Below, in pieces: positions 20,834 through 44,384 of a stretch of 47,983 nucleotides of DNA (position 1 is the stretch's first letter; each line of letters opens with the position of its first letter). Source of the stretch: Rhodanobacter sp. 67-28. Lineage in GTDB: Bacteria > Pseudomonadota > Gammaproteobacteria > Xanthomonadales > Rhodanobacteraceae. Location: assembly GCA_001898415.1 (NCBI GenBank), contig MKTU01000027.1:121873-169855 (forward strand). The letters are read 5' to 3'. The notes beneath the pieces are model-generated. The model did no database searches, was not told the DNA's origin, and saw only the letters and a program-made list of their open reading frames with translations. Made by a program: the position numbers and the translations under genes.

Positions 20834-20942
20834 TCGTCATTCCCGCGAAAGCGGGAATCCATGGGTTCACGAGGTAAAAGACAGCGGATGACCAGACATT
20901 CGTCTGTTGAAAAAACGCCTCCCGCTCTCGCGGGAATGACGA
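20834..20942. repeat. Family C inverted-repeat pair
   Basis: CGTCATTCCCGCGAAAGCGG (20835-20854, continuing GAATCCATGG) faces CCCGCTCTCGCGGGAATGAC (20921-20940). Each half forms its own small hairpin, and the pair can also fold on itself. The GTCATTCCCGC motif is a dispersed repeat seen in many proteobacteria. The 55 or so bases between contain AT-rich sequence and no ORF. It separates srkA from the thioesterase gene. Confidence 0.8.

Positions 20943-42092: not shown

Positions 42093-42102
<10 letters not shown>
41981..42102. repeat. Family E inverted-repeat element, copy 2 (long)
   Basis: The left arm is 41981-42013 (beginning AGTGAGTGAAGAGGAGTGAG). It faces the right arm 42064-42102 (CCTTCTCTCACTCTTCAACT and onward). 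The two can form a long imperfect stem of about 33 bp with a 50-base loop. The right arm encodes the last residues (AEK) and the stop of accC; the left arm begins 10 bases before the prmA start. It can therefore fold within the accC-prmA transcript. Confidence 0.87.
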
Positions 42103-43469
<1,367 letters not shown>

Positions 43470-43910
43470 GGGAATGTGAAAGGGAATAGGGAATGGGGAA
43501 TAGGGAATAGGGAGATCATCGAATCGCCTCTCTTGTTCGCAGTGTGTTCATCAGACCAGTCAGCATGGCAAACACCTCATCTATGGAAATCTTGGTGTCA
43601 ACCGGAATAGTCCCGTAACCAAGCCGTGCGGCGATCTGCAGCTGAGTGTCCAGCTCTGATAGCGATCCACGAGCGATCGACAAAAAGCGCAGGTATTCGG
43701 GAGTCGAGCGACGAGCGGCGCCCTCGGCGATGTTAGACGGGACGCTGACGGCAGCGCGCCTGAGCTGGGCGGTCAGCCCGAAGCGTTCGCTGTCGGGGAA
43801 TGCCGAAGAGCAGGCATAGACTTGCTCCACCAGCGACATTGCTCGCTTCCAGACCGACAAGTCTTCGTGCGGCCGCTTTGACAATTCCCTATTCACGATT
43901 CCCTATTCCC
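43470..43910. mobile_element. Family D cassette between accB and accC: facing heptad arrays around a four-helix-bundle gene
   Basis: Left: one heptad GGGAATG abuts the accC start (43470-43476), then four heptads at 43482-43509 (ending A, G, A, A). Right: four inverted heptads at 43883-43910, ending 6 bases before the accB stop. The space between is filled almost completely by one gene (43516-43896). The inside is visibly less GC-rich than its neighbours. Solo copies without the gene exist at 3849-4008 and 32276-32368. Mobility is inferred from the exact gene-junction insertion, base composition and multiple copies; no transposase is present and target duplications are not evident. Confidence 0.65.
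43516..43896 (-). CDS. Four-helix-bundle protein (23S rRNA intervening-sequence / S23 family)
   Basis: This 126-residue helical protein matches the four-helix-bundle family first found in rRNA intervening sequences and related to Avd of diversity-generating retroelements. Hallmarks are [59 protein letters not shown] and [19 protein letters not shown]. Avd forms a pentameric nucleic-acid-binding barrel; the function of stand-alone members is unknown. The start is a GTG (43896) inside the right-hand heptad array, so the first codons (MNRE) are repeat-encoded. The AGGGAAT of the array may act as ribosome-binding site. The gene interrupts the accB-accC operon and has lower GC. Confidence 0.9.
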
Positions 43911-43916
43911 TGCTTT

Positions 43917-44384
43917 TCAGGCAATCACGAACATCGGTTCGTCGAATTCCACGGGCTGGCCGTTCTCGATCAGGATGGCCTGTACGGTGCCGGCGACTTC
44001 GGCTTCGATCTGGTTGAACATCTTCATCGCCTCGATCACGCCCAAGGTGTCGCCGGCCTTGACCTGCTGGCCGACCTTGACGAAGGCGGGGGCGCCGGGC
44101 GAGGCGGAGGCGTAGAAGGTGCCGACCATCGGCGCCTTGACCACGTGGCCGGCCGGCAGGGCGTCGGCGGGCGGCGCTTCGGAAGCGGCGGCGGGCGCAG
44201 CGGCCACCGGGGCGGCGGCCACGGCAGGCGCGGCGGCGGCCACCGGCGCGGCGGCCGCGACCGGTGCGGCGCCCTTGGGCACGCGCGACAGACGCACGAC
44301 TTCCTCGCCCTCCTTGATCTCCAGTTCGGCGAGGTTGGATTCCTCGAGCAAGTCGATCAGCTTCTTGATTTTGCGCAAATCCAT
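43917..44384 (-). CDS. accB: Acetyl-CoA carboxylase biotin carboxyl carrier protein
   Basis: This 155-residue protein carries the biotin that shuttles carboxyl groups between AccC and AccAD. The N-terminal helix is [21 protein letters not shown] Pro/Ala-rich swinging linker (residues about 39-75) is followed by the biotinyl domain with [17 protein letters not shown], in which Lys121 is the biotinylated residue. It ends [10 protein letters not shown]. An AAAGG lies upstream of the ATG at 44384. It is the second gene after aroQ. The family D cassette begins 6 bases after its stop and separates it from accC. Confidence 0.97.

Follow-up and report, generated by a model that had tools for sequence, protein, structure and literature searches.

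How a single small gene came to stand between accB and accC, enclosed by two facing arrays of seven-base units, is the question raised by one locus of Rhodanobacter sp. 67-28, which was analysed as part of a stretch of 47,983 nucleotides of contig MKTU01000027.1 (hereafter the window; Table 1).

Table 1. Positions in the window of the cassette, its neighbours and the related gene-less arrays
Feature	Position	Strand	Basis	Remark
accC (biotin carboxylase)	42093..43469	-	ORF	Downstream neighbour on coding strand
3' arm, facing heptad array	43470..43508	-	Sequence; predicted RNA pairing with 5' arm	Abuts accC ATG
PF05635/TIGR02436 four-helix-bundle gene, 126 aa	43516..43896	-	ORF and profile matches	
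5' arm, heptads GGGAATA GGGAATC GTGAATA GGGAATT	43883..43910	-	Sequence	
accB (biotin carboxyl carrier protein)	43917..44384	-	ORF	Upstream neighbour on coding strand
Facing heptad arrays without the gene (six GGGAAT units, then a loop and inverted units), L229	3849..4001	.	Sequence	Dispersed relative of cassette
Second gene-less facing heptad pair, L230	32276..32362	.	Sequence	

On the coding (minus) strand the accB stop codon (43917-43919) was followed by 6 nt, the 5' array, the gene, a gap of about 7 nt, the 3' array and the accC ATG (43467-43469), and a first-pass annotation of this DNA had given both outer distances correctly. The same annotation had seen a single gene enclosed by facing arrays, which held; the gap between its stop, put there at 6 bases from the nearer array, measured about 7 nt. 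The four heptads claimed for each side were found on the accB side, with three exact ATTCCC hexamers and one ATTCAC variant, while the accC side had five exact GGGAAT hexamers on the plus strand (at 43470, 43482, 43489, 43496 and 43503, that is, ATTCCC on the coding strand) interrupted by a GTGAAA. The two arrays consist of mutually complementary 7-bp units. The GTG start of the gene (43894-43896), rightly placed inside an array before, falls in the third heptad of the 5' array, so that the first residues of the protein are written in the array. Throughout the window GGGAATB occurred 29 times against 12.3 expected, a count, arrays elsewhere in the window included, that was reached in 0 of 100 shuffles, and the predicted RNA fold of the cassette paired both arms (z -2.0; 4/100 shuffles as stable). 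Distinct from the heptad arrays is a palindrome ATTCCC-N8-GGGAAT at 20838-20859 (ATTCCCGCGAAAGCGGGAAT), with another GGGAAT at 20932, which presumably resembles the dRS3-type repeat of Neisseria.

A structure of the S23/IVP protein was reportedly published in 2006. The window protein proved to be of the S23/TIGR02436 type first assigned to it, matching both PF05635 (119.8 bits; cut-off 33.8) and TIGR02436 (116.5 bits; cut-off 24), and it matched PDB 2GSC (XCC0516) with 166 bits, a homopentamer of four-helix bundles according to the available part of PMC4990558. Its predicted pI was 9.4. The Pfam scan of this protein at E 0.001 returned PF05635 alone, and so no IS200/IS605-type tyrosine transposase match; a catalytic protein linked to the cassette element was not found either, which counts against its reading as a mobile element. 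The pN/pS ratios of 0.04–0.20 in 13 overlapping pairs of relatives indicated purifying selection, thus the PF05635 protein has been kept working. A related four-helix-bundle fold is described, in the part of PMC10053308 available, for the Avd protein of diversity-generating retroelements, but the window protein, with accB and accC as neighbours, scored 19.4 bits with the DivGenRetAVD equivalog model, below its cut-off of 80.

Facing arms are a general trait of the PF05635 family, and their unit differs between lineages, two features that the first-pass annotation had not anticipated. The comparison included 106 PF05635 loci: the 80 nearest relatives of the query, 20 loci from the genus and 8 from plasmids, after removal of L026, which duplicates the record of L019, and of L034, whose flank was short. 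The upstream flank was compared with the reverse complement of the downstream flank, arms being called complementary at a score of 25, and period 7 required 14 of 21 matches on both sides, in flank windows set from the match ends. Complementary arms were present at 92 of the 106 loci against 18/227 ORFs taken from these loci as controls, and complementarity combined with period 7 on both sides at 73/106 against 6/227; the complementarity test was failed by 14 PF05635 loci, and flanks crossed between different loci reached the score in 50 of 424 cases. Seven was the best common period at 78 of the 106 loci, its double at 14 and eight at 4. The arm units varied (GTGAGGA, TAGGTCG, CAGTTCT, GGATTTA, AGGCACC and others), and 13 named phyla, including Cyanobacteriota, had at least one locus passing both tests.

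The 106 loci consisted mostly of the query's nearest relatives, and a second sample was therefore drawn evenly from the phylum, where 57 of 349 genomes had PF05635. Among 85 further places 60 were scored, the remainder being mostly fragments; L292-L296 do not enter the counts. Arms were complementary at 44/60 places against 14/180 crossed flanks, which served as the controls here, and the best period on both sides was seven at 42/60 and eight at 5/60. All these arm counts (106 loci, 60 loci and control ORFs) are not independent, since loci within a lineage are related. The heptads are not absent from most relatives: most of those examined have complementary arms, often of a unit other than GGGAAT. 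With 28-nt arms taken from fixed anchors (offsets set by hand for G007, G013, L035 and L039), in-register pairing averaged 24.0 of 28 over 21 loci against 21.9 with the 3' arms exchanged, and for these 21 related rows none of 5000 exchanges was as high as the observed value.

Two narrower descriptions were rejected: arms special to accB-accC or to Xanthomonadales, because they occur at PF05635 loci of many phyla, and one fixed repeat for the whole family, because the unit is lineage-dependent and the period is eight in some loci. PF05635 genes with complementary arms were also located in nrd, T4SS and integrase loci and in 23S rRNA, and at L175 and L180 the gene was oriented against its neighbours. 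The arms of L070, L089, L240, L243, L254, L261 and L265, which comprise some Bacteroidota and a group within the phylum sample, look 8-periodic. One contig (G203:C331) had two PF05635 genes about 1.3 kb apart (L246 and L268), both with AGATGTG-like arms.

The copy in rRNA came from G298, a genome of the phylum sample, where PF05635 copies stood in two stretches of identical sequence (L282 and L291), one of them called bacterial 23S rRNA by Rfam: L282 lies inside 23S rRNA (RF02541, 1685.8 bits). Its arms, with a score of 46 and period-7 matches of 13/21 and 16/21, read TCAGGAA TCAGAGT TCAGGAA, facing CCTCTGA TTCCTGA, and the odd unit was matched in register. Intervening sequences of 23S rRNA with an S23p/PF05635 ORF are known from Coxiella and Leptospira, and are reportedly also the subject of Ralph and McClelland 1993. 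In the available part of PMC4990558 (Warrier 2016), the Coxiella intervening sequence ends in a stem of 28 bp, the RNase III ends fall midway along that stem, and GACAGAT heptamers stand in tandem next to the S23 ORF. Warrier et al., in the same part, treat the heptamers as a difference between strains on the 5' side and consider the S23 protein as not made in vivo and its ORF as decaying (PMC4990558); their view of the protein and its ORF was counted against the mobile-element reading. The earlier proposal that the cassette has the design of an rRNA intervening sequence found support in L282, with its complementary and mostly heptad-spaced arms, and in the stem and heptamers of Coxiella, as far as that source was accessible. 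Common to both are the PF05635 ORF in the loop, the inverted repeats at the ends, which pair into a stem of about 28 bp, and the heptamers, which stand beside the ORF in Coxiella and as heptad-spaced arms on both sides in L282. The window cassette, in contrast, is located in an mRNA between two protein genes and not in a 23S rRNA gene, and has gene-less copies dispersed in its genome.

The occupancy of the accB-accC site was followed through 45 genus genomes, all with a match to the accB query (in G041 merely a weak one to another gene), and the junction was readable in 42 of them; it was not found in G017, lay at a contig end in G042 and was without a proper accB match in G041. Eleven of the readable junctions had the gene with arms, 8 a gene-less insert, 17 a bare 10 nt and 6 other spacers. 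Empty sites therefore exist, and the gene is not an ancestral one lacking them. The gene-less inserts were about 110–120 nt long; some, such as those of G009 and G036, had clear facing arrays, whereas others were degenerate. In G010 and G028, one with and one without the cassette, the accC flanks were 94–99% and the last 200 nt of accB 98–99% identical, and gap-free identity fell off further upstream. The PF05635 gene also stood at the accB-accC junction of records bearing the names Rhodanobacter, Dyella, Xanthomonas, Pseudoxanthomonas and Luteimonas, and on the accB/accC tree it was patchy, with at least 7 changes. Two X. arboricola loci (L022 and L027) had cassettes of different types between flanks that were 93–100% identical in 100-nt bins; cassettes of different type or lineage replace each other at accB-accC in close relatives. 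The accC start read mostly ATGCTAGAA in genomes with a cassette or insert and ATGCTCGAG or ATGCTTGAG in those with the bare 10-nt spacer.

Occupied and empty sites were also found on Nostocales plasmids. At one site the element was present in L176 and L204 and missing in L193 and L194, the remainder being about 97% identical, and GTAAT on both sides of the element was the sole clean target duplication. At a second site, occupied in L179, L205 and L206 and empty in L200 and L203, TTCTA stood on both sides in L205 and L206 and TTCTG on the right side in L179, these being bases which may be arm sequence; five further plasmid sites and the acc site gave no clear target duplication. L195 is a copy cut off without its 3' arm, and another gap of this plasmid family, empty in L198, L199, L200 and L179, was filled by arrays that have the same unit but no gene. 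One Nostoc plasmid family (L200 compared with L179/L206) had two PF05635 elements of unrelated units, GGGAAAA and CAGGAGT, at neighbouring gaps. At L182, on a Pseudanabaena plasmid, the PF05635 gene was located between cas6 and cas4 of a CRISPR-Cas operon and its arrays (AAAAGCT, AAAAGCC) pointed in the same direction instead of facing each other, an exception to the rule; its relative without the gene, L210, had a short AATTACG run in the same cas6-cas4 gap. According to the available part of PMC3936711, 18 23S_rRNA_IVP genes were found in cas loci.

The genome of the window had 307 GGGAATNGGGAAT places, and within the first 100 of these 38 of 44 arrays formed 19 facing pairs with gaps of 31–138 bp; 2 pairs were divergent. 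Gene-less pairs shared inner motifs with the gene-bearing copy in 10/18 and 13/18 cases against a background of 4.3% and 2.5%, the motifs having been chosen after viewing the sequences and L215 dropped as the same sequence as L214. Between pheS and pheT an insert of about 90–141 nt was present in 23 of 44 readable junctions, the other 21 being spacers of 20–37 nt. By eye most inserts had facing units, degenerate in G018, G020, G022, G032, G037 and G039, and in G002 and G003 the loop started with AAAAGCGGCCGC, like the PF05635 gene itself. The pheS-pheT spacers of G001 and G036 (L308 and L318) were short and free of a hairpin, and each retained one GGGAATC, which may be the scar of an excision or else a target. 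Arrays were also abundant in genus genomes without a PF05635 match (triple-unit matches: G009 77, G028 68, G031 66, G029 52), and the cassette genomes G007 and G023 had 4 each, mostly their own arms; this distribution was counted against the mobile-element reading.

Judged from the trees, the arm unit goes with the lineage of the PF05635 protein and not with that of the host accBC genes: a switch between GGGAAT and GGGATT was needed 2 times on the protein tree (21 typed rows), of which few branches were well supported, and 8 times on the accBC tree (20 rows), with L030 left out of the latter and L039 out of the two-state unit tests. When triple arrays were counted across whole genomes, their GGGATT/GGGAAT ratio separated 10 genomes with a GGGAAT cassette from 11 with a GGGATT cassette without overlap (U=0, p=1.2e-4); G007 and G023, with few arrays apart from those of the cassette itself, add little to this. 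The 5 supported independent pairs on the host tree all agreed on the unit match (p=0.0625, with a cut-off set after seeing the data). The unit of the pheS-pheT insert was that of the acc cassette in 8 of 9 genomes with both, G002 disagreeing and G007 and G023 having no insert; in G024 the insert resembled the arms of its own PF05635 gene located elsewhere, and G025, without the gene, had a similar insert.

Among 26 distant genomes GTGAGG arrays were present in 9 of 10 with GTGAGG-type arms (none in L031), numbered 9–35 in three GTGAGTG-type genomes, and were zero in 10 of 11 with clearly other arm units, the remaining one having a single array. L056 and L058, with arms of another unit, were exceptions with 35 and 70 GTGAGG arrays, and L031 was the reverse exception. 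The reversed control pattern was non-zero in several distant genomes (L032 3 and L037 4, against 7 and 7), so that low GTGAGG counts in those genomes say little. Total array load differed with cassette presence (11 against 31 genomes, p=2e-4, G017, G041 and G042 being out for their unreadable acc junction and the 31 including five genomes with PF05635 at other sites); it was rejected as proof, being weak on phylogenetically independent pairs (about 2.5/4 for, 0.3 against). Taken together, the repeat type appears to covary with the resident PF05635 gene, with few independent pairs and with G002, L056, L058 and L031 as exceptions; that many gene-less copies have the unit of the resident gene was likewise not anticipated by the first-pass annotation.

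A search of largely open-access journal literature found no paper linking PF05635 genes with facing heptad arrays generally. In the RAYT system, as presented in the accessible text of Nunvar 2010 (PMC2817692), the gene stands between two inverted copies of a genome-wide palindromic repeat whose type coevolves with it, REP abundance goes with the cognate RAYT gene, and RAYTs are related to IS200/IS605 transposases. The PF05635 gene likewise stands between inverted copies of a dispersed repeat of covarying type, but its product is a four-helix bundle that matched nothing else in Pfam, and its repeat is a facing pair of heptad arrays. The units themselves have been described: the accessible text of Rehm 2015 (PMC4692102) treats the GGGAATC G-quadruplex repeats found in Xanthomonas, and the GGGGA(C/T)T repeats found in Nostoc, as simple repeats that are rich in G and over-represented; it counts 70 and 75 convergent pairs, mostly in conserved places. 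Xcc repeats are given there as 83% at the same place in Xac and 90% between the same ORFs, and the Xanthomonas repeats as generally without association to mobile elements; the conservation, as far as this source goes, speaks for stability and against the mobile-element reading. The function of these xanthomonad and cyanobacterial heptanucleotide repeats is left open in that text, whose main part has no accB, accC, helix bundle or transposase, and so no PF05635 link. The arrays of the present study have the same or similar units, are likewise dispersed and intergenic, and convergent pairs are frequent in Xanthomonas too, according to the same source.

The cassette is probably one copy of a small dispersed, likely mobile, element composed of two facing arrays of 7-bp units around a PF05635 gene. 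Also weighed against this reading were the single clean target duplication, the 14 loci failing the complementarity test, the weak tie between array load and cassette presence, the few pairs behind the unit match and the exceptions L056, L058 and L031. The suspicion of the first-pass annotation that it belongs to an unrecognised class of element was borne out in the form of a little-recognised class, because of the arms in many phyla, the empty sites, the exchange of cassettes and the dispersed gene-less copies. What the cassette shares with the intervening sequence is the ORF and the stem; the wider element class is the novel case. By analogy, the best reading is that the element family would be organised like RAYT/REP, with a ring-forming four-helix bundle replacing the transposase, and the rRNA intervening sequences would be a special case of it.

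The readings competing with a mobile element differ in what they leave out. The heptad arrays might be ordinary slippage-prone, G-quadruplex-forming intergenic repeats which the PF05635 gene merely tolerates or has captured, as would suit the hundreds of gene-less arrays, found also in genomes without PF05635, and the description of the Xanthomonas and Nostoc repeats as over-represented simple repeats, mostly at conserved places, in the accessible text of PMC4692102. We consider this unlikely, as complementary period-7 arms accompany PF05635 in phyla with unrelated units, against 6/227 of the controls, the unit tracks the protein lineage and not the host, and the gene-less loops share their inner ends with the gene-bearing copy. 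The position between accB and accC in the records of five genera, together with the strong purifying selection, could instead suggest a long-standing gene of the acetyl-CoA carboxylase operon with a role at AccB/AccC and arms acting as a regulatory stem, a reading made very improbable by the gene's presence in just 11 of the 42 readable genus junctions and the bare 10 nt in 17, by the family members with complementary arms at the nrd, T4SS, integrase and 23S rRNA loci, and by the different cassette lineages at accB-accC in close relatives.

An element serving mainly in RNA processing, its RNase III-cut stem uncoupling accB from accC expression and its spread due to homologous recombination of the acc locus, is in our opinion improbable as well. 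The paired arms of the predicted fold and their in-register pairing of 24.0 of 28, above that of exchanged arms, agree with it, as do the first accC codons ATGCTAGAA shared by most occupied genomes, unlike the empty G028, which hint at a short recombination tract; it leaves unexplained the dispersed gene-less copies matching in unit and the insertions in plasmids, in rRNA and in loci such as L175 and L180.

Under the mobile-element reading, the PF05635 protein, a homologue of a pentameric ring, would recognise its own arm unit as folded RNA or as a single-stranded DNA hairpin, and so might spread or maintain its own copy and the gene-less copies, as is thought for RAYT and REPs. Because this small helix bundle is no transposase, the protein would supply the recognition, whereas the chemistry would fall to a different enzyme, with the joining of DNA provided in trans. 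Within the accB-accC message, the stem would place the stop codon of accB near the start codon of accC, thus limiting the harm of the insertion, and, by analogy with rRNA intervening sequences, could be a likely RNase III substrate.

More tentatively, and with rather less conviction than doubt, the PF05635 proteins may be the recognition subunits of a cross-phyla class of transposable elements with facing heptad arms and a ring-forming protein without a catalytic site. Its autonomous and non-autonomous members would be the rRNA intervening sequences, the xanthomonad GGGAATC repeats and probably the cyanobacterial heptanucleotide repeats, and it may move via folded RNA copied by an enzyme in trans. 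Three puzzles that are mostly discussed separately would thereby be tied together: the role of the S23/IVP protein, the way in which rRNA intervening sequences arose, and the heptanucleotide repeats so abundant in xanthomonads and cyanobacteria. The 23S_rRNA_IVP genes in cas loci, as given in the available part of PMC3936711, may likewise be insertions. If it is true that the protein binds its own arm unit, a single binding assay would open all three puzzles and the question of the cas loci.
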